Shown here: positions 7,668 through 56,149 of the stretch, in pieces | Layout: each line of letters opens with the position of its first letter | Position numbering within the stretch: position 1 is the stretch's first letter | NCBI RefSeq assembly: GCF_000025605.1 | Contig: NC_013894.1 | Coordinates: 853,529-917,528, forward strand | Direction of reading: 5' to 3' | Origin: Thermocrinis albus DSM 14484 | GTDB lineage: Bacteria; Aquificota; Aquificia; Aquificales; Aquificaceae | DNA length: 64,000 nt | Notes under the pieces: model-generated | Databases searched by the model: none | Told to the model about the DNA's origin: nothing | What the model saw: the letters and a program-made list of their open reading frames with translations, nothing else | Made by a program: the position numbers and the translations under genes

Positions 7668-10136
7668 CTAATTAATTTTAAAACTCTGGTCCATGATCTT
7701 CATCTTCTCTCTCTCTATGGCTTCACCCAGCTCTTTTCCCTTCAGTCCTTGAAACTCATGGGGTGATACCTTTACAAACCTCAACTTATCCAGATAAAGG
7801 AGAATCTTTTTACTCACTTCTTGTTCCGTCATAAGAAGTAGATGGAAGGCAACGGGAAAACCTTTTAGAGTTCTGTAAACTTCCGAGGGCCTTTGGGCCT
7901 CCTTAAGAGTCTGCACCACTCTTTTTTTATCCTTTCTCCAAAGATGGTAAACCTGATGCACCCAAGAAGGGGCGTTTATGTCCTTCAAGATCTTTAGGGC
8001 GGTATCGGAAGATACATGACTGAGGAGGAGAATAAGGTACAACCAGGAATAATCTACGTTATCTCTCTGCTGATGTTCCATTCTGTGCCACACCACTACG
8101 TCCCTCAGTGTCTCCAAGCGGTCCAGAAGATCCTGCGATAGGATTATGTCAGGCAGTAGGTGCTGCAGGACACCGTACTTCTTGTAAAGGTAGAGGATCT
8201 CTATGAACCTCTCCTCTCTGAGGGCTAACCTAAGTTCGTTCATCAACCTACCTACGGGTGCTTTAGAGAGGAACCCTCCAGAGACAGCGTGAAGGAGTGC
8301 CTTTTCCGTACTCTTGGAGAGTTTGAAACCAAATCTGCCTGCGAACCTAAGAGCCCTGAGGATGCGCACCGGATCTTCCACAAAGCTCATGGGGTGGAGG
8401 ATTCTTATGAGACCTTCCTTTAGATCCCTCAGCCCTCCGAAGTAGTCTATGAGGGTGCCAAAGTCTTCCTCCATCACTGACACAGCCATAGCGTTTATGG
8501 TGAAGTCTCTACGCAGAAGATCCTCCTTTAAAGAAGCAGGTTCCACCACCGGATAAGCACCGGGATGAGGATAAGTTTCACGACGAGTGGTGGCCAGCTC
8601 CACCTTAATGTCTTTTATCTTAAGATGAACAGTGCCAAACTGAGGAAAGGGATGGAGGTTGACGTTGTAATACTGAGCTAACCTCTGTGCCAGCTTTATA
8701 GCATCACCCTCCACCACGAAATCTATATCCCACACCCTTTTACCCAAAAGGAGGTCTCTGACAACGCCTCCCACCAGATAGCATCTGAATCCCAGTTCTT
8801 TACACATTTGCCCGGTTCTTTCAGCCAGTTCTTTAAGGTGTTCGGGTAGTTGTAACCTCTTCTGATAAGGTTTCAGGGTGTCTATCTGTCTGGAGATGGT
8901 GTGAATAAGGTCCAAGCGTGTCACCACACCTACCAGATTATCTCCCTCCACCACAGGTATAAGCTTCTCACCAAAGGTGGAGAGGATCTTCTCCGTCTTC
9001 CACACAAAGTCATCGGGAGATAGGGTATGAAAGTCCAGTATCATAAACTCAGACACAGGTTTATCGGGAAAAAGTTTCACCGCTTTGAGAAGGGTCTTCT
9101 TATATATGACACCCACCAGTTTACCCATATCGTCCACCACAGGAGCGCCTGCGAAATTTCTCTCGGAGAGCTCTGCCAAAGCCAACTGTATGGGTGTATC
9201 TTTGTGTAACACAAAGGGGGGAGTACTCATAATGTCCCTCACCCTTAGGGGCACCCATTCTCCCTTCAGAATAGAAACAAGTAGAGCTTTCATCCGTTCT
9301 GCGGAAATATCCTCCAACTTCACGGCACCGGCAAAGGAATGACCACCCCCACCGAATTTTTCCAGTACATGGGATACATCCAGGTCACCCTTTATGGACC
9401 TTCCCAAAAGGTACACTCTGCTGCCGGCCTCTACCAGTACGAAGAAAGCAGAAGAGTCCCTTATATCTTCAAGACGGTACACTAGAGGTACTATACCCGG
9501 AGTGTACTCCTCTCCCTTCAGGAGAAGTACGGAAACTTTCTTATCTCCTATGAAAAGGTGCTCTACAGAGTGAAGATTCTTGTAGAGAATCTCCAGATGT
9601 TCTCTGCTGAGAAACTCCTGCGTGTACCTTCGTATCTCCCTGAGGGAGGCTCCTTTCTGCAAAAGCCAGGCTAAGGCCATAGCATCTCTGTAGGTGGTAC
9701 CTTCGTAGGTGAGGTTTCCCGTATCTTCGTATATGCCAAGAGCCAGAAGGGTAGCATCCTCAGGCGTTATCTGTACACCCTTCCGGAGGATCTCCTCCAC
9801 TATGAGGGTTGTGGTACTTCCCACCGGCTGGATCTCTCCGGGATAAATCTTCTCGGTGGGATGGTGGTCGTAGACCCAAACCTCCTCTACCTTGTCTGGG
9901 CCTATGCTCTGAAGGATTTCCTCCACATGGTGTGTGTCCACCAAAATCAGTTGGAACCTTTCGGGCAGACTTTCCACCACACGGAACTTGTCCCTCTTCT
10001 CTTTAAAAACTAAAGAGGCCTTCTGTGAGAGAGAAGTGGGTTTAAGAAGGTAGGCATCTGGATAGAGGAGCAGTACACCGTAGGCAGAGGAGAGGGCGTC
10101 CAGATCGGCACCCTCTTCTAAGATAACCAGCTTCAT
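7668..10136 (-). CDS. DHH / CBS / tRNA nucleotidyltransferase fusion, A-adding type
   Basis: 822 aa in three blocks. A DHH phosphoesterase domain (residues 1-300) has DTHH at 67-70 and YDHHPTEK at 89-96. Two CBS domains (about 300-415) follow, then a class II nucleotidyltransferase from about 440 with VGGVVRDLLLGKRVWDIDF and RRDFTINAMA. In Aquifex, CCA addition is split between a CC-adding enzyme and an A-adding enzyme; I recall the A-adding one as the long DHH-CBS form, so this is probably that enzyme. The specificity is inference. The three tRNA genes in this window lack encoded CCA, so such enzymes are needed. Confidence 0.85.
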   Translation of the reverse strand: MKLVILEEGADLDALSSAYGVLLLYPDAYLLKPTSLSQKASLVFKEKRDKFRVVESLPERFQLILVDTHHVEEILQSIGPDKVEEVWVYDHHPTEKIYPGEIQPVGSTTTLIVEEILRKGVQITPEDATLLALGIYEDTGNLTYEGTTYRDAMALAWLLQKGASLREIRRYTQEFLSREHLEILYKNLHSVEHLFIGDKKVSVLLLKGEEYTPGIVPLVYRLEDIRDSSAFFVLVEAGSRVYLLGRSIKGDLDVSHVLEKFGGGGHSFAGAVKLEDISAERMKALLVSILKGEWVPLRVRDIMSTPPFVLHKDTPIQLALAELSERNFAGAPVVDDMGKLVGVIYKKTLLKAVKLFPDKPVSEFMILDFHTLSPDDFVWKTEKILSTFGEKLIPVVEGDNLVGVVTRLDLIHTISRQIDTLKPYQKRLQLPEHLKELAERTGQMCKELGFRCYLVGGVVRDLLLGKRVWDIDFVVEGDAIKLAQRLAQYYNVNLHPFPQFGTVHLKIKDIKVELATTRRETYPHPGAYPVVEPASLKEDLLRRDFTINAMAVSVMEEDFGTLIDYFGGLRDLKEGLIRILHPMSFVEDPVRILRALRFAGRFGFKLSKSTEKALLHAVSGGFLSKAPVGRLMNELRLALREERFIEILYLYKKYGVLQHLLPDIILSQDLLDRLETLRDVVVWHRMEHQQRDNVDYSWLYLILLLSHVSSDTALKILKDINAPSWVHQVYHLWRKDKKRVVQTLKEAQRPSEVYRTLKGFPVAFHLLLMTEQEVSKKILLYLDKLRFVKVSPHEFQGLKGKELGEAIEREKMKIMDQSFKIN

Positions 10137-10148
10137 AGTATAATCTTA
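10137..10148 (-). promoter_or_regulatory. possible -10 for the tRNA nucleotidyltransferase gene
   Basis: On the minus strand TAAGAT (10143-10148) ends 6 bases before the ATG at 10136 and overlaps the divergent secG -10. No Shine-Dalgarno is present. No clear -35 is visible, so this is a weak call. Confidence 0.35.
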
Positions 10149-10153
10149 CAATC
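10139..10153 (+). promoter_or_regulatory. secG promoter -10, predicted leaderless
   Basis: A perfect TATAAT at 10139-10144 leaves 9 bases to the ATG at 10154. The space is too short for a leader, and no Shine-Dalgarno is present. Confidence 0.6.
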
Positions 10154-10492
10154 ATGTACTACTTTCTGCTGGTTCTCTTCCTGATGGTAGCATTTCTCCT
10201 CATAGTGGTGGTCCTGCTCCAAAGAAGCAGAGGAGACGTAGGGACGGCTTTCGGCGGGATGGGACAAAGCGTGTTCGGCCCGGGTGGCGTAGACACTATC
10301 CTGACACGGATCACTTACTGGCTGGGTTTTCTGTTTATGGCTTTAGCTATATTGTTGGCTTTGACACACCCCGGCAGAAGGGAATCTTTAATAAAGGATG
10401 AAGGTGCTGGAACTTCTCAACCTGCATCCCAAGGTAAGCAAGAGGGAAAAACACCTTCTCCTAGCCCATATCCTTCAGGTAACACCAAGTGA
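10154..10492 (+). CDS. secG: preprotein translocase subunit SecG
   Basis: Small membrane subunit of the SecYEG channel. Two hydrophobic segments (about residues 3-22 and 53-73) flank the conserved cytosolic loop DVGTAFGGMGQSVFGPGG, which is diagnostic. The C-terminal tail of about 35 residues is Ser/Pro/Gln-rich and of low complexity; it exists because the frame runs 95 bases into prmC. The functional part ends near residue 77. Confidence 0.9.
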   Translation: MYYFLLVLFLMVAFLLIVVVLLQRSRGDVGTAFGGMGQSVFGPGGVDTILTRITYWLGFLFMALAILLALTHPGRRESLIKDEGAGTSQPASQGKQEGKTPSPSPYPSGNTK

Positions 10493-47714: not shown

Positions 47715-50700
47715 ATGGAGGTGACAAGACGAGGGTTTCTAAAGTTAACAGGTGTATCGTTGGGAACAGGTTTAATAGGCAGTTTAGGTTTCGACCTCTC
47801 CCCTGCCTACGCGAGGGTGAGAGAACTTAAAATTGCGAAAGCAAAAGCTGTGAAAAGTATATGCCCTTACTGTTCCGTTTCGTGTGGTGTCCTCATATAC
47901 TCCCTCACTGACGGCGCCATGAACGTTAAACCTAGGGTGATACACGTAGAGGGTGATCCAGATGACCCAGTAAACAGGGGAACTCTATGTCCCAAAGGTG
48001 CAACGCTGCGAGACTTCATAAACTCTCCTCAAAGACTGACAAAACCTCTCTATAGGGCTCCTGGCTCTACAGAGTGGAAGGAAATAACGTGGGAGGAGGC
48101 TATAGAGAGGATAGCAAGGAGAATTAAGGATACTAGAGATAGGACGTTTATAGAAAGGGATGCGGAGGGACGGGTGGTAAACAGATGTGAGAGTATCTTT
48201 TGGCTTACAGGGTGCACGATAGAAAACGAACCCGGTTATCTTATGGTAAAGTTGGGAAGATTACTGGGTCTCGTAGCGTTAGAGACACAAGCGCGAGTGT
48301 GACACGCTCCTACAGTGGCCAGTTTGGCCGCAAGATTTGGTAGGGGGGCCATGACCAACTCATGGAATGATATAAAGAACGCTGATCTGATTTTTGTTAT
48401 GGGGGGGAATCCTGCGGAAAACCATCCGTGTGGCTTCAAGTGGGCAATAAAAGCTAGGCAAGAGAGAGGGGCTAAGATCATAGCGGTGGACGTTAGGTAT
48501 CATAGAACTGCCGCTGTGGCTGATATCTTCGTGCAGATAAGACCTGGTTCAGACTTGGCCTTCATGGGTGGACTTATAAACTACGTGATTCAAAACAAGA
48601 AGTATAACGAAGATTACATTAAGTACTTTACAAACGCTACTTACATAGTAAAAGATACTTACAGCTTCGACCCAGAGACGGGACTGTTTTCTGGGTACGA
48701 TCCCGAAAAAAGGAAGTATGACACCACACTGTGGGACTACGAGAGAGACGAAAAAGGTATGGTAAAGAAAGACATGACGATGCAACACCCACGATGCGTC
48801 TTTCAATTACTTAAGAAACATTATGAGAGATATACACCGGAGTTGGTGGAGAAGATCACAGGGGTTCCTAAAGAGAAGTTTTTAGAGGTGGCAAAGCTCA
48901 TAGCAGAAACCGGCGCACCTAACAAAACCATGACACACCTTTACGCACTCGGTTGGACTCATCATAGCTGGGGTAGCCAAGTGATCGGTTCAATGGCTAT
49001 ACTTCAGCTGCTCCTCGGTAACATAGGTATGCCGGGCGGAGGTGTAAACGCTCTGAGAGGTCATGCCAATATACAGGGTATGACGGATCTAGCGGGAGAG
49101 GGAAGATTTCTGCCAGGATACCTTAGGCCTCCAAAGCCTGAGCAACAAAGTCTGAAAGAACATCTTGAGGCAAACACGCCGAAACCTTGGGATGAAAACT
49201 CTATGAATTACTGGTCCAACTATCCTAAGTTCTTCATAAGTATGCTGAAGGCCTTTTACGGGGATGCAGCAACGCCTGAGAATGAATTCGGTTACCACTA
49301 CTTACCCAAGACAGAGAAGATTATAAGCTGGGATGAAGCCATAGATAGGATGTACAGAGGTAAAATGGAAGGTGTCGTTGCGGTAGGCATCAACATACTG
49401 GCCAACACCCCCAATACCAGAAAAACTATTGAGGCCCTATCCCGCCTCAGATGGATGGTGGTCATGGATCCCTTTATGACGGAGATGGCCAACTTTTGGA
49501 AATATGTAGATAATCCAGAGAAGGTCCAAACGGAGGTTTTTCTACTCCCGGCAGCTGTGTTTGCTGAAAAGGAAGGTACCAAAACCAACAGTGCCCGTAC
49601 CCTTAAGTGGGTGTACAAAGCTGCGGAACCACCGGGTGATGCCAAAGAAGAGCTATGGTTCATAGGAAACTTATATATGAAACTCAGAGAGCTTTATCAG
49701 AAGGAGGGTGGGGTTTTCCCCGACCCCATACTGAAGGCTTGGTGGCCTTATAAAAACCCATACCATCCGACTGCCGACGAGGTACTGGCCATGGAGATAA
49801 ACGGTGTAGCGTTAGATGACATAAAGGATGATAAGGGTAACGTCATAGCCAAAAAGGGCGAGAGACTGCCGGGCTTCACAGCTCTGAAAGAAGATGGTAG
49901 CACCGTATGTGGTATGTGGTTGTACTGTGGCGTTTACCCTCAATCTGGAAACAGAGCAAAGAGCACTGATCTTTCGGACCCTTCGGGACTTGGTATATAC
50001 CCTGGTTATGGTTACTCTTGGCCTGCCAATAGGAGGATTCTTTACAACAGGGCTTCGGCCGACCCTTCTGGTAAACCATGGGATCCTAAACGCCGTCTCG
50101 TATGGTGGAACGAAAGAGAACAGAAATGGGTAGGTAACGATGTACCAGATATAAAGCCTGACTTAGGTCCTGAGTATGGTCCCTTCATAATGCTTCCAGA
50201 AGGTAGGGGAAGACTGTACTCCCACTTCCTGGTAGACGGTCCGTTCCCCGAACATTACGAACCCTATGAATCACCTGTAAAGAACCCGTTACACCCCAAG
50301 GGAACTGGGATGAACCCAGTAGTGAAAGTCTATAAGTCGGACGTGGATCTTCTCGGAACACCGGATAAGTTCCCCTATGCCGCAACTACCTACAGGGTCA
50401 CAGAACACTTCCATTTCTGGACAAAGCACGTTTACGGCGCATCTATCCTCTTTGCCCGTATGTTTATAGAGATACCTGAGGAGTTGGCAAAGGAGCTTGG
50501 CATAAATCAAGGAGATAGGGTTAGGGTAGTAACGGCTAGAGGTTCTGCAGAGGCTTATGCCTTACCTACAAAGAGGATAAAACCCCTTATAGTTAACGGT
50601 AAAAAGGTGTATACCGTGGGTATACCTATACACTGGGGGTACGAGGGTGTGGTGAGAGGTTCTCTGGCAAACCTGATAACCCCTTTCATATGGGATCCCA

Positions 50701-50759
50701 ACTCTCAGACACCTGAGTACAAGGGTTTCCTCTGCAAAATAGAGAAGATCAAAGCTTAA
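47715..50759 (+). CDS. fdhG: formate dehydrogenase catalytic subunit, selenocysteine-containing
   Basis: 1014 aa read through an in-frame UGA at 48300-48302 (residue 196, Sec). The Tat signal TRRGFLK (residues 4-10) sends the folded enzyme to the periplasm. [4Fe-4S] ligands are Cys50, 53, 57 and 92; the active site ARV-Sec-HAPTVASLA matches FdnG/FdoG of E. coli (ARI-Sec-HGPTVASLA). The molybdo- or tungstopterin domains follow to the end. It oxidises formate to CO2 and passes electrons to the beta and gamma subunits. AGGAGG lies 7 bases before the ATG. Confidence 0.95.
48300..48346 (+). promoter_or_regulatory. SECIS element directing selenocysteine insertion
   Basis: The UGA is followed at once by an outer 7-bp stem (48307-48313 with 48340-48346) and an apical GGCC/GGCC stem (48317-48320 with 48326-48329) closing the loop AGUUU. 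Counting U of UGA as 1, U17, G23 and U24 fall where the E. coli fdhF element has its SelB contacts. This explains why the UGA is not a stop. Confidence 0.85.
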
Positions 50760-50774
50760 TAGGGAGGTGATACC

Positions 50775-51671
50775 ATGAGCAACGTGACCACTGAAGGTAC
50801 CGTAGGATTGGGCCTGAGGAGAGTGTCTGCCTCAGGCTCTCCTGCTCAGGATATAAAGAGAAGTGACCAACTGGCTATATTGGTAGACGTTTCCTCCTGC
50901 ATAGGATGCAAGGGGTGTGAAGCTGCATGTTCCCAATGGCACGATCTGAAACCTCCTTTACCTGATGAGAGAGCACCCTTCATAGGTTATCAGTCATTCC
51001 CCGATTTACTGCCCAACGTGTTTATGCTGATGAAGTTCCGAGAAGTGGAAACGGAGAGAGGTGTGGAATGGTTCATAACAAAGTATCAGTGTATGCACTG
51101 CGGTGATCCCGGCTGTTTGAAGGCATGTCCATCACCCGGTGCGATAGTACAGTATGCAAACGGTGTAGTAGACTTTGATCACTCTAAATGTATAGGCTGT
51201 AAGTTTTGTCTTTCCGGTTGTCCTTTCGATGTACCTCGTTACGATTCCAACAACAAACCCTGGAAGTGTAACTTCTGTATTGACAGAGTGTCCGCCGGAC
51301 TAGAACCTGCCTGTGTGAAGGCATGTCCCACCAACTGTTTACACTTCGGGACTAAAGAGGAGATGGTGAGAAGAGCACAGAAGATAATAGCACAACTTCA
51401 GCAGCGGGGATTTAAAAATGCAACTCTCTATGATCCTGCAGGCGTAGGAGGTACAGGGTACATCTATGTCTTACCTCATGGAGACAAACTTGAGATGTAC
51501 GGACTACCTAAGGAGGCAAGCATATCACCGTTAGTAAATTTGTGGAAAGGTCCTCTGAAACTGCTGGGAAGCGTTGTCCTGTGGGGTACGCTGGTAGGTG
51601 CCTTCCTACAGCTCATAATCTTCGGTCCCATAAGGGTGGGTAAAAAAGAAAAAAGCAAGGAGGAGGTATAA
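50775..51671 (+). CDS. fdhH: formate dehydrogenase iron-sulfur (beta) subunit
   Basis: 298 aa with four [4Fe-4S] motifs: CIGCKGCEAACS, CMHCGDPGCLKACP, CIGCKFCLSGCP and CNFC followed by CVKACP. A C-terminal membrane helix (LLGSVVLWGTLVGAFLQLIIF) anchors it, as in FdnH. It relays electrons from the catalytic to the cytochrome b subunit. The gene name follows the FdnGHI scheme, not the E. coli fdhF product called FDH-H. AGGGAGGTGATACC precedes the ATG. Confidence 0.93.
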   Translation: MSNVTTEGTVGLGLRRVSASGSPAQDIKRSDQLAILVDVSSCIGCKGCEAACSQWHDLKPPLPDERAPFIGYQSFPDLLPNVFMLMKFREVETERGVEWFITKYQCMHCGDPGCLKACPSPGAIVQYANGVVDFDHSKCIGCKFCLSGCPFDVPRYDSNNKPWKCNFCIDRVSAGLEPACVKACPTNCLHFGTKEEMVRRAQKIIAQLQQRGFKNATLYDPAGVGGTGYIYVLPHGDKLEMYGLPKEASISPLVNLWKGPLKLLGSVVLWGTLVGAFLQLIIFGPIRVGKKEKSKEEV

Positions 51672-51674
51672 ACC

Positions 51675-52307
51675 ATGGAGGATGTAAAGAAATTGGAAGA
51701 TACCGAGATAGAAAGGTTCTCAAGATGGGACAGACTACTACATTGGATAGTGGCCATTTCCTTTCTGTACCTCTTTCTGTCTGGACTAGGAATATACTCA
51801 CCTAGGTTCCACTGGCTACTTTGGATACTGGGGGGTGGCGAGTTTGCCGCATGGCTTCATAGGTGGGTGGGTATAGTCTACTCGGTGGGAGTTCTACTGA
51901 TGTTTTTGAGATGGGCGAAGGACTTTATGTTGGCCGGTGACGATATACGGTGGCTGAAGGGGGTGAAGTATTACATAAGGGGAGAGGAGGAAAAACTGCC
52001 GGAGGTTGGTAAATACAACGCTGGACAGAAACTATTTGGGTGGGTTGTGTTTGTGGGTACACTGGTGTTTCTCCTTTCGGGTATAGTCATGTGGTTTCCT
52101 GGAAGCTTCCCCTCGTACGTGGTAAGGGTGGCAATAGTACTGCACGATGTGGCCTTCATAATAGTAGGTGCTGGCTTTATAGTCCACGTGTACATGGGCA
52201 CCATAGGTGTGCCAGGTTCCCTCTCTGGTATGATAACTGGAAAAGTTTCGGCTCTTTGGGCCATGTATCACCATCCTAAGTGGTTCAAGGAGGTTATGAG
52301 GAGGTGA
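51675..52307 (+). CDS. fdhI: formate dehydrogenase cytochrome b (gamma) subunit
   Basis: 210 aa with four membrane helices. Histidines in DRLLHWIVAISF, WLHRWVGIVY and LHDVAFIIVGAGFIVHVY fit the two b-haem sites of FdnI-type subunits. It passes electrons to the quinone pool. The start follows the fdhH stop by 3 bases, with an AGGAGG-type site in the fdhH end. Confidence 0.92.
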   Translation: MEDVKKLEDTEIERFSRWDRLLHWIVAISFLYLFLSGLGIYSPRFHWLLWILGGGEFAAWLHRWVGIVYSVGVLLMFLRWAKDFMLAGDDIRWLKGVKYYIRGEEEKLPEVGKYNAGQKLFGWVVFVGTLVFLLSGIVMWFPGSFPSYVVRVAIVLHDVAFIIVGAGFIVHVYMGTIGVPGSLSGMITGKVSALWAMYHHPKWFKEVMRR

Positions 52308-52312
52308 GTACC

Positions 52313-52834
52313 ATGGGAAGTGTGGTCAAGGGTATGGTGCTCTGCGCCACCCTCTTCTTTTTCTCAAAAGCTCAGGAAATGGAAGTAAAGGCACATGCAG
52401 ACCTGATAAACCAGAAGGGCGAGAAGATAGGCACGGCAGAGTTTCTGCAAACGAACGGTGGCGTTCTTATAAAGCTTCGTGCGAGTGGACTTCCACCTAA
52501 CTCAGAACTCGCTTTACATATACACGAAGTTGGGAAGTGCGACCCACCGGACTTTATGTCCGCAAAAGGGCACTTCAATCCCTATAAAAAGAAGCACGGA
52601 CTTTTAAACCCAGATGGACCACATGCAGGGGACATGCCCAATGTATTTACCGATTCCAACGGAAACCTCAGGGTGGATGTGCTAAACACCTTTATAACCC
52701 TCGAGCCTAATAAAGAGAACAGTCTTCTAAGAGAAGGTGGAACCGCTCTCATAGTACACCACCACCGTGATGACTACAAAACAGACCCAGCAGGAAATGC
52801 AGGACCCAGAATAGCCTGCGGAGTTATAAGATGA
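52313..52834 (+). CDS. sodC: Cu/Zn superoxide dismutase family protein, exported
   Basis: 173 aa from ATG 52313, chosen because GAGGAGGTGAG lies just upstream and a short signal peptide (VLCATLFFFSKAQ) follows. Metal ligands are intact: LHIHEVGKC, KGHFNP, KKHG, GPHAGDMPN and IVHHHRDDY; the C-terminal IACGVI supplies the disulfide partner. It removes superoxide in the periplasm, where FdhG also acts. Its place inside an fdh operon is unusual. Confidence 0.92.
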   Translation: MGSVVKGMVLCATLFFFSKAQEMEVKAHADLINQKGEKIGTAEFLQTNGGVLIKLRASGLPPNSELALHIHEVGKCDPPDFMSAKGHFNPYKKKHGLLNPDGPHAGDMPNVFTDSNGNLRVDVLNTFITLEPNKENSLLREGGTALIVHHHRDDYKTDPAGNAGPRIACGVIR

Positions 52835-53571
52835 ATCATGAAGTTCGTGACAGGATAAAGGTTCTTTCAAAGAGACATCCAGAATCTCTACATATGCTTC
52901 AGTTTATGGAAAGAGTATTGGAATTCCAGCACAGGGCACAAGCTACAGTGCAAGAAATAGACTGGTCACGTAATCTTCATATCCTTATAGATTTGCTCCA
53001 ACTATGTGTGAGTATCGGACCTTCATCACTGAAGGAACGAGCGAAGGAATTTATGGAGTTCGATGAAAACACCCTCTGTGCTATGGTGACTAAGTTCTTG
53101 GAGGACAAAACTGCCACAGATATAGACAGATTCATCTTTTTGACCTTCTTGGGGCCCATATACTCCTCGTGGGCTAGCAAAGGCAGATACGACAGTAAAG
53201 GGTGGCTGAAAAAGGTGTGTCCGGTGTGTGGTTTCAAGCCTTATGTGTCCTATGTAGTAGATGAAGAAGAAGTAGAGGGGGCACGATATCTTACCTGCGT
53301 TATGTGTGGTTTTAGCTGGTACTTTAACAGAACTAGCTGTGTAGCCTGTGGGAACAACGAAGATCATCTTTTGGAATATTACTACACAGAAGGAGAAGAA
53401 TACGTGCAGCTTCAGGTTTGTCATAGGTGCGGTACTTACATTAAGGTACTAGACATGAGGGTTGAAGGGACCGTGATCCCTATACTGGACGATATAGCGA
53501 CAGTCAGTATGGACCTGTGGGCAAGACAGAGAGGTTTTGTGAGGTATGAAAAAAACTTACTTGGGCTCTAA
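52831..53571 (+). CDS. fdhE: formate dehydrogenase accessory protein FdhE
   Basis: 246 aa. Helical N-terminal part, then rubredoxin-like CxxC pairs: CPVCGFKP, CVMCGFSW, CVACGNN and CHRCGTY. FdhE is needed for activity of Tat-dependent formate dehydrogenases and binds the catalytic subunit before export. The ATG overlaps the sodC stop by 4 bases. Confidence 0.92.
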   Translation: MNHEVRDRIKVLSKRHPESLHMLQFMERVLEFQHRAQATVQEIDWSRNLHILIDLLQLCVSIGPSSLKERAKEFMEFDENTLCAMVTKFLEDKTATDIDRFIFLTFLGPIYSSWASKGRYDSKGWLKKVCPVCGFKPYVSYVVDEEEVEGARYLTCVMCGFSWYFNRTSCVACGNNEDHLLEYYYTEGEEYVQLQVCHRCGTYIKVLDMRVEGTVIPILDDIATVSMDLWARQRGFVRYEKNLLGL

Positions 53572-53573
53572 TA

Positions 53574-54095
53574 ATGCTAAACAGGAGGAATTTTTTTATT
53601 TGGCTAAGTTCTTTATTACCTTTATATGGGAGAGGCATGGATTACATAGAAGTCTTGGGTTGCAAAATAAAAAAGGATAGGTTGTACAGGATTAACGAGG
53701 AGAGAATGATCTTTCAATGGGTGAAGAGAGAAGGTAAAAGTGTGTACTCCGTAGGTTTTACTCCAATTCTTGCATACTTAATATATCCTGTGTATGCTAT
53801 AAAGCTAAAACCTGTAGGTACTAAAGTGGAGTATGATGGTAATCTGGCCGTCATAGAGGCTGGGAAAAGGGTCCTAACTTTTCCATCACCTCTCACTGGA
53901 ACTGTTGTGGAAGTCAACGGAACCCTAGAGAGGGATCCGTCTCCCATCGTAGCTGACCCTTACGGTGCATGGCTTGTAAAGATAGAATCCACCGATGTGG
54001 TCAATCTTAGAAAACTGAGAAAGGCACAGGATGTGGTAGAGATCTTCAGAAAGGTTATAATCAGAGAGGACATAGAATGTCTTCCAAGAAGCTGA
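53574..54095 (+). CDS. GcvH-fold protein with Tat-like N-terminus, lipoyl lysine kept
   Basis: 173 aa. From residue 55 it aligns with glycine cleavage H protein over the whole fold (SVGFTPILAYLIYPVYAIKL, then VIEAGKRVLTFPSPLTGTVV). Lys98 sits at the lipoyl position, with Glu95 three before and Gly109 eleven after, as lipoylation requires. The start NRRNFFIWLSSLLPLYG resembles a Tat signal or anchor, so it may act outside the cytosol. No P or T protein is nearby. Function is unknown; an electron, formyl or sulfur carrier for the enzyme is only a guess. Confidence 0.82.
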   Translation: MLNRRNFFIWLSSLLPLYGRGMDYIEVLGCKIKKDRLYRINEERMIFQWVKREGKSVYSVGFTPILAYLIYPVYAIKLKPVGTKVEYDGNLAVIEAGKRVLTFPSPLTGTVVEVNGTLERDPSPIVADPYGAWLVKIESTDVVNLRKLRKAQDVVEIFRKVIIREDIECLPRS

Positions 54096-54096
54096 C

Positions 54097-54192
54097 GGGA
54101 GAGCGTGGCCGGCTGGTGCCGCCCCGGGACTTCAAATCCCGTGGAGGGTCGCTCCGGCGATCCTCGGAGGGTTCGATTCCCTTGCTCTCCCG
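54097..54192 (+). tRNA. selC: selenocysteine tRNA (anticodon TCA)
   Basis: 96 bases. The acceptor stem GGGAGAGC pairs with GCTCTCCC over 8 bp, with discriminator G. The anticodon loop CTTCAAA carries TCA between CGGGA and TCCCG; the long variable arm has GGGTCGC paired with GCGATCC. The 8-bp acceptor plus 5-bp T stem is the bacterial tRNA-Sec form. CCA is not encoded. It begins one base after the stop of the GcvH-like gene, so it should be cut from the fdh transcript unless it has a promoter inside that gene. Confidence 0.95.
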
Positions 54193-54197
54193 TGCCT

Positions 54198-54211
54198 TAT
54201 AATAAACTCTC
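54198..54211 (+). promoter_or_regulatory. thrS promoter -10, predicted leaderless
   Basis: TATAAT at 54198-54203 leaves 8 bases to the thrS ATG at 54212. The -35 region would fall inside the T arm of the tRNA-Sec gene, near TTCGATTCC. Confidence 0.55.
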
Positions 54212-56149
54212 ATGGAACGTATAATCCTTGAAGTAGATGGTAAAGAGATAGAGGTACCCAAGGGTACCCCTCTGGGAGAAGTGTTTCGTCTGGCGGGAGT
54301 GCAGGATGCTATAGCGGGCAGGTTAGGTGACAGGATCTTGGATCTTCAGACACCTGTGCGGGAAGGTGGCAAGATAAAACCCATAAGGAAAGGTGATCCA
54401 GAAAGCTTAGAAGTTATGAGACATACTCTATCTCACATAATGGCACAGGCCCTGAAGGAGATATACGGTTACGATAGGGTACATCTGGGAGTAGGGCCTA
54501 CAACGGAGGAAGGTTTTTACTACGATGTGGAAGTGGAGGGTATCAGCATAAGGGAGGAGGATCTGCCCATCATAGAGGAAAGAATGAGGCAGATAGTGAG
54601 CAGGAACCTTCCTATAGTGAGGCAGGAGGTGAGCAAAGAATACGCTCTAAAACTCTTTGAGAGTTTAAAGGAACCCTACAAGCTGGACATCATCAACAGG
54701 ATACAGGAAGGTGATGTTATATCGGTGTACCAACAGGGAGAGTTTGTGGACCTGTGCAGGGGACCACACGTACCCAGTACAGGGATGGTGGGAGCCTTCA
54801 AGTTAACCCATGTGGCGGGTGCTTACTGGATGGGTGACGCCAGCAAGCCTATGTTACAGAGGATATACGGCATAGCCTACTGGGATGAAAAGGAGCTGGA
54901 AGACAGACTCAGATTCTACGAGGAGGTAAAGAGGAGAGACCACAGGAAGCTGGGAAAAGAATTGGAGATGTTCATGATAGACGAGGAGATAGGTGCGGGT
55001 CTCGTCATATGGTTACCCAAGGGGGGTATTTACCGTAAGGTTCTAGAAGATTACTGGAGGGAGGAGCATCTGAAAAGAGGTTACCAGCTAGTGTACACAC
55101 CTCATATAGGAAACGCCAAACTGTGGCAAAAAAGTGGGCACCTCGATCATTACCGACAGAACATGTTCCCTCCCATGGAGCTCGAAGATGAAGAGTACTT
55201 CGTAAAACCCATGAACTGTCCTTTCCACATAGCCATTTACAAAAGTAAAGTGAGAAGTTACAGGGATCTACCTTTCCGACTGGCGGAGTTGGGTACCGTT
55301 TACCGGTACGAGATGTCTGGGGTACTTCATGGCCTTATGAGGGTAAGGGGTTTTACTCAGGATGATGCTCACATTATATGTAGACCTGATCAAGTGGATG
55401 ATGTTATCCAAGAAACACTGGATTTTGCTATCAGTATGCTACGGGATTTTGGTTTTGATGAGTTTAAAGTGTATATATCCACCAAACCTGAAGATGCTAT
55501 AGGCTCCGACGAACAGTGGGAAAAGGCAGAGAGCGCTCTCAAAAAAGCTGTGGAAAGTATGGGCTTAGAGTACGAAATAGACGAAGGTGGTGGCGCTTTC
55601 TATGGTCCTAAGATAGACGTAAAGATAAGGGATGCTCTAGGTAGACTGTGGCAGTGTTCCACAATCCAGTTTGATTTTAACCTGCCGGAGCGGTTTGATA
55701 TGGAGTACGTGGGACCCGACAACAGAAGACACAGACCTTACATGATCCACAGAGCCATACTGGGTTCCATAGAGAGGTTTACAGGAGTCCTCTTAGAACA
55801 CCATGCAGGATTGCTGCCCTTCTGGCTGGCACCCGTACAGGTTAGGGTACTGCCGGTACAAGAAAGGCATGTGGAGTATGCCAGAAGTGTGGCCAATACA
55901 TTGAGGGAGGAAGGTTTCCGAGTGGAAGTAGACGAAAGGGACGAAAGACTAGGAGCCAAGATAAGGGATGCAGAACTCCAAAAGATTCCGTATGTTCTCA
56001 TAGTAGGGGACAAAGAGATGCAGGATGGGAGTGTTTCCGTGAGAGGTAAAAGGGAAGGAGACCTGGGAAAGATGAGTCTACAGGATCTTTTGAGTTTTTT
56101 AAGAAGCGCCAACACAAAGCGCCAAAATGAAGCATTGCATAGAAAGTAA
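54212..56149 (+). CDS. thrS: threonyl-tRNA synthetase
   Basis: 645 aa, full length: TGS domain (1-60), editing domain with HTLSHIMAQAL near 70 and the GPHVPSTG block, class II core with MNCPFH zinc ligand and FTQDDAHIIC, and a C-terminal anticodon-binding domain. It charges tRNA-Thr. The start lies 20 bases after tRNA-Sec. Its last 23 bases overlap plsC. Confidence 0.96.
   Translation: MERIILEVDGKEIEVPKGTPLGEVFRLAGVQDAIAGRLGDRILDLQTPVREGGKIKPIRKGDPESLEVMRHTLSHIMAQALKEIYGYDRVHLGVGPTTEEGFYYDVEVEGISIREEDLPIIEERMRQIVSRNLPIVRQEVSKEYALKLFESLKEPYKLDIINRIQEGDVISVYQQGEFVDLCRGPHVPSTGMVGAFKLTHVAGAYWMGDASKPMLQRIYGIAYWDEKELEDRLRFYEEVKRRDHRKLGKELEMFMIDEEIGAGLVIWLPKGGIYRKVLEDYWREEHLKRGYQLVYTPHIGNAKLWQKSGHLDHYRQNMFPPMELEDEEYFVKPMNCPFHIAIYKSKVRSYRDLPFRLAELGTVYRYEMSGVLHGLMRVRGFTQDDAHIICRPDQVDDVIQETLDFAISMLRDFGFDEFKVYISTKPEDAIGSDEQWEKAESALKKAVESMGLEYEIDEGGGAFYGPKIDVKIRDALGRLWQCSTIQFDFNLPERFDMEYVGPDNRRHRPYMIHRAILGSIERFTGVLLEHHAGLLPFWLAPVQVRVLPVQERHVEYARSVANTLREEGFRVEVDERDERLGAKIRDAELQKIPYVLIVGDKEMQDGSVSVRGKREGDLGKMSLQDLLSFLRSANTKRQNEALHRK

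Follow-up and report, generated by a model that had tools for sequence, protein, structure and literature searches.

Clusters of sel genes with fdhA, including shared operons, have been described in Alpha-, Beta-, and Gammaproteobacteria (PMC1794560), at odds with the view of the first-pass annotation of our sequence that selC is usually an independent gene. In Alphaproteobacteria, selC may be nested in selB, for which a model of alternative expression exists, and related overlaps occur in Gammaproteobacteria and Nitrospirae (PMC8124441). In Aquifex aeolicus, tRNA genes are found in tandem clusters and in ribosomal operons, and Aquificaceae use a protein-only RNase P (PMC10941002). For A. aeolicus, formate dehydrogenase (FDH) and selenide water dikinase are listed as the two predicted selenoproteins (PMC1242214). 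A survey of Aquificales RNAs records the presence of tRNA-Sec, and a term search of its text showed nothing on the gene neighbors (PMC4227106). We analyzed a 64,000-nucleotide window (positions 853,529-917,528) of the 1,500,577-base genome of Thermocrinis albus, in which selC follows the genes of a selenocysteine-containing FDH. A literature search, mainly of open-access papers, returned no report of this gene order. Since selC-fdh clustering is already published for Proteobacteria, the Aquificaceae version is a variant arrangement.

Organization of the fdh-selC locus

The plus strand of the window carries the gene order fdnG(TGA)-fdnH-fdnI-sodC-fdhE-gcvH-like-selC-thrS (Table 1). The first-pass annotation had described the run up to selC as one-stranded, with gaps of 0-15 bases and no terminator; strand, order, and the lack of a called terminator stand, whereas some of the presumed gaps are overlaps. 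The spacers measure 15 nt (fdnG-fdnH), 3 nt (fdnH-fdnI), and 2 nt (fdhE to the gcvH-like gene), while fdnI and sodC overlap by 28 nt (taking the listed GTG as the sodC start) and sodC and fdhE by 4 nt. As first reported, the tRNA-Sec gene begins one base after the gcvH-like stop codon, the single intervening base being 54096; selC is in turn followed after 19 nt by thrS on the same strand. No intrinsic terminator was called on the plus strand between the gcvH-like gene and thrS, and a dedicated terminator between the fdh operon and selC was considered and dropped, none being called.

Table 1. Features of the fdh-selC locus (window coordinates)
Feature	Position	Strand	Evidence and remarks
fdnG-type formate dehydrogenase alpha subunit	47715..50759	+	Pfam PF00384, PF04879, PF01568
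In-frame TGA (Sec) of fdnG	48300-48302		
SECIS element directly after fdnG TGA	48297..48355	+	RF01989 SECIS_3 42.4 bits, E 7e-9, below the 63-bit gathering score
fdnH-like iron-sulfur subunit	50775..51671	+	PF13247, PF09163
fdnI-like cytochrome b subunit	51675..52307	+	PF01292
sodC, Cu/Zn superoxide dismutase	52280..52834	+	PF00080
fdhE, formate dehydrogenase accessory protein	52831..53571	+	PF24859, PF24860
GcvH-like protein	53574..54095	+	PF01597 98 bits; stop TGA 54093-54095
TATAAT hexamer	54056..54061	+	Within gcvH-like gene, at -41 relative to selC; candidate -10 box
selC, tRNA-Sec, TCA anticodon, 96 nt	54097-54192	+	ARAGORN; Rfam RF01852 77.4 bits
TATAAT hexamer	54198..54203	+	Between selC and thrS; candidate thrS promoter, from sequence
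thrS, threonyl-tRNA synthetase	54212..56149	+	PF00587, PF03129, PF07973; next gene 3' of selC

With its TGA read through, FdnG matches TIGR01553 with 1554 bits over 1009 positions, which identifies it as the alpha subunit of a Sec-containing formate dehydrogenase N, and it carries the Tat-like signal TRRGFLK. The SECIS element expected after the TGA of such a gene is present despite its sub-gathering score, and the hairpin sequence is kept in six relatives. The selC product belongs to tRNA-Sec by its RF01852 score, well above the gathering score of 47 bits; it is the sole tRNA-Sec copy above cut-off in the genome and encodes no CCA. Among the remaining genes, sodC is missing from the fdh operon in some relatives. 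The GcvH-like protein has a Tat-like N-terminus (NRRNFF), and R4, R5, and K98 are invariant, K98 aligning with the SVKA lysine of GcvH structures, the lipoyl-type position. It falls short of the GcvH equivalog cut-off (TIGR00527, 55.6 against 115.85 bits) and is assigned to the broader PF01597 family. It is possibly an exported lipoyl-type protein tied to FDH, and the locus marks this Tat-type protein as a steady FDH partner.

The genome encodes SelA, SelB, and SelD besides selC and hence has the Sec-decoding trait. These genes are dispersed: selB and selA lie at 696.7-699.8 kb, selC at 907.6 kb, and selD is also distant. Six nucleotides after selA lies a tRNA-Ser (CGA) gene with its own TATAAT (L122, G000:C1:696617-696706, minus strand).

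Conservation and displacement of selC among relatives

We found tRNA-Sec in 56 of 136 genomes of the phylum, namely 36 Aquificaceae (the window's own included) and 20 members of family f5. The order fdh-(sodC)-fdhE-gcvH-like upstream of selC recurs in 23 Aquificaceae genomes from five genera (g1, g2, g3, g4, and g7), a count in which G042 shows only the gcvH-like end and some contigs stop within the operon. By profile search, the gcvH-like gene itself is present in 24 Aquificaceae genomes, adjacent to selC in these 23 and apart from it only in G040. The junction is nearly invariant: in 19 genomes G1 of the tRNA also belongs to the gcvH-like stop codon (1 nt overlap), and 0, 0, 1 (the window), and 2 bases separate the two in the remaining four, so that the distance stays between -1 and +2 nt throughout. 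Adjacency confined to this genome had been named as grounds for abandoning the proposal, and the conservation removes that objection; chance adjacency, considered separately, is ruled out by the spread over five genera. Close packing of tRNA genes is by itself frequent in the window genome: of the 43 tRNA genes other than selC, 14 follow an ORF on the same strand (minimum length about 110 codons) at a distance of at most 20 nt, and three are no more than 3 nt from such an ORF or overlap it, one of these ORFs being probably spurious. Tight tRNA packing alone is therefore ordinary in this compact genome; a conserved partner is not.

In the 20 f5 genomes with selC, no matches to the fdh-operon proteins of the window were found nearby, and the selC neighbors differ. 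A single scan of genome contigs for copies in distant phyla recovered fdh-gcvH-like-selC only in Aquificaceae loci and in contig L103 (RFFP01000010.1). Deposited as Acidobacteria, L103 bears an fdh operon of Aquificaceae type and agrees with G040:C18 in length and in the 3' end of the gcvH-like gene; it is likely a mislabelled assembly, apparently of that very contig. A Terriglobia contig has a remote GcvH-like gene, with neither tRNA-Sec nor an fdh gene seen; no tRNA-Sec was found near the Azospirillum fdn cluster, and in Sinorhizobium chiapasense tRNA-Sec lies about 9 kb downstream of an fdnG match.

In relatives that lack the linkage, selC persists, in several of them with its own -10-like box. 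It abuts the 3' end of selB, or overlaps it, in four genomes (G019, G022, G063, and G062) and does likewise with an NTPase gene in two (G018 and G008); in G044 it comes after a metK-like gene. In G019, G022, and G063 (L047, L050, and L052), the selB frame enters selC by 11-14 bases, a partial overlap of the kind known from other phyla. In three other genomes, G001, G009 (L046, L064), and G052 (L040), the selA, selB, and selD genes, the fdh operon, and selC all fall within about 15 kb; in G001 and G009 a LysR-type gene precedes fdhG and selC is immediately followed by a cysteine-desulfurase-like gene, these names of neighbors (LysR-type, metK, NTPase, cysteine desulfurase-like) having been read by eye from translations. 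Decaying versions were also found. A complete one-contig genome (G057:C1; L043, L170, L171) has an intact-looking tRNA-Sec beside an fdhG remnant, a UGA-containing selD, only a fragment of selB, and no selA that we could find; it has apparently just lost the use of selenocysteine. In G049 (L121, G049:C128 about 9600-10400), a gcvH-like remnant precedes a degenerate tRNA-Sec with an altered acceptor 5' side, and neither selA nor a selB above cut-off was found. The two genomes look like cases of loss in progress.

A second client and a candidate selC promoter

The first-pass annotation had taken FDH as the only evident client of the tRNA; this does not hold. The SelD of the window genome, encoded elsewhere, contains an in-frame TGA (MELLRLVRASG-UGA-AAKVGPGD). 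A search of 17 genomes, this one among them, found such a TGA in the selD of 14 and in a partial match in one more. Moreover, some relatives keep the Sec machinery without FDH: in G043, selA, selB, selC, and UGA-selD are present and a search for an FDH match found none, which means that selC must be expressible without fdh. Since SelD also needs tRNA-Sec, the supply cannot follow FDH alone. In a 99% complete draft genome (G027), Sec-FDH, selA, selC, and UGA-selD were found and selB was not, owing to either an assembly gap or a real loss.

The TATAAT hexamer within the gcvH-like gene recurs at -39 to -45 relative to selC, mostly at -42, in 15 of the 23 genomes with the arrangement, the exact hexamer being absent from the site in the other eight. 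It appears in two codon registers at about equal distance from selC. Sampling of synonymous codons from the encoded proteins and the codon usage gives an expectation of 4.3 occurrences (one of the 23 genomes, having no codon table, was counted as zero). Likewise, at Xaa-Ile-(Ile/Met) sites, TATAAT occupies 15 of the 24 possible positions in this region, compared with 12 of 108 in the remainder of these operons (Fisher p 4e-7, the relatedness of the genomes making such p-values too small). The gcvH-like gene of G040, which is not followed by selC, retains Thr-Ile-Ile but spells it ACA ATT ATC, which lacks the hexamer; at its separate site, selC of that genome is preceded by its own TATAAT at about -18. 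Thus, a hexamer kept beyond coding needs and absent where selC has moved away suggests, with moderate rather than firm confidence, a dedicated selC promoter within the gcvH-like gene. Its position is unusual: 21 of the 43 other tRNA genes of the window genome have an exact TATAAT at -16 to -26, and none has it as far upstream as the -41 of selC. No clear -35 partner is evident for the -41 hexamer, and a consensus promoter scan, uninformative in giving fewer hits than shuffled sequences, did not call it; a weaker TAGAAT at -24 follows from coding. The original interpretation is accordingly retained for the conserved adjacency. Against an exclusive tie to fdh speaks the conserved candidate promoter, which may or may not supply most of the tRNA; a dedicated promoter within the gcvH-like gene is evidence that the first-pass annotation had itself named as contrary to its proposal. 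The selC-fdh link is real but probably looser than first proposed.

Supply of tRNA-Sec and comparison with described systems

We consider it fairly probable that tRNA-Sec has a dual supply, from the internal promoter and from read-through of the fdh operon. The promoter, embedded in the last part of the gcvH-like gene, would yield a short transcript whose 5' leader measures about 30 nt, giving a basal supply for the second client, selenoprotein SelD. Read-through, with no called terminator between, would add tRNA when FDH is expressed, and thus an extra supply while FDH mRNA is abundant. Both precursors would be cleaved at the 5' end by the protein-only RNase P of the family and would undergo 3' trimming and CCA addition, the latter being needed because this selC copy encodes no CCA. 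The gene order and its conservation, the second client, and the conserved hexamer are observed; promoter activity, read-through, the share of each, and the processing in this organism are inferred. The earlier statement that the tRNA must be processed out of an mRNA is upheld to this extent: since no terminator is called between the genes, any read-through transcript has to be cut.

The original idea, that co-transcription with fdh is the sole or main source of tRNA-Sec and that tRNA supply tracks transcription of the client mRNA, we regard as unlikely. It would account for the tight conserved linkage, for the lack of a called terminator, and for the eight genomes without the internal TATAAT; however, it sits poorly with a UGA-containing client encoded elsewhere in the genome, with the conserved candidate promoter inside the gcvH-like gene, and with the unlinked genomes that keep selC, several with a -10-like box of its own. 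At the other extreme, adjacency may reflect nothing but compaction and shared inheritance, selC having its own promoter and negligible read-through, with the Sec trait and FDH gained and lost together. A stop-codon distance held within 3 nt over five genera is hard to reconcile with mere compaction, as is the lack of a called terminator shielding selC from read-through, and we hold this explanation decidedly improbable, even though it is in line with the 14 of 43 other tRNAs packed behind ORFs, the placement of selC behind selB, NTPase, or metK genes in relatives, the fdhG (G057) or gcvH-like (G049) remnants still beside selC during loss, and the joint travel of sel and fdhA genes in Proteobacteria (PMC1794560).

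The shared base at the junction raises another reading, mutually exclusive expression, in which 5' cleavage of the tRNA removes the gcvH-like stop codon, as in the published model for selB-nested selC (PMC8124441). In the 19 genomes where the stop includes G1, the processed mRNA would end in UA, and selB and the NTPase gene show like geometry in other relatives; in the window, however, one base lies between stop and tRNA, and cleavage would leave the stop intact, and three other genomes also lack the overlap, which leaves this reading scarcely credible. If cutting at the tRNA end takes the shared stop codon with it, tRNA-Sec maturation from the fdh transcript and gcvH-like translation would exclude one another; combined with the internal promoter, this would make a switch coupling the supply of Sec-tRNA to FDH expression across Aquificaceae, a scheme to which we give little credence. 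The locus lends itself, as a clean natural example, to the question of whether a decoder tRNA is co-regulated with the mRNA that needs it, and one family offers linked, unlinked, and decaying versions of it.

The closest described systems are the selABC-fdhA clusters of Proteobacteria (PMC1794560), which likewise place Sec-decoding genes, selC included, in or next to a Sec-FDH operon. The likeness is greatest in G001, G009, and G052, where selA and selB accompany selC, in contrast to the window genome. In the window, selC is linked to the Sec-FDH gene as in those clusters, but FDH is not the sole selenoprotein, given the TGA of SelD, and selC closes the fdh operon itself, after the Tat-type GcvH-like gene. 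As in selB-nested tRNA-Sec (PMC8124441), selC touches or runs into the end of an ORF, such that processing would cut the mRNA, and overlaps with selB itself exist in Aquificaceae (G019, G022, and G063). The overlap with the GcvH-like gene, however, is at most one base, and in the window the 1 nt gap leaves the upstream frame, stop codon included, clear of the tRNA. Finally, as for Aquifex tRNAs carried in longer transcripts (PMC10941002), the tRNA must be cut from a longer precursor; here, in contrast, selC has the mRNA of its client as a neighbor, in a linkage kept over genera.
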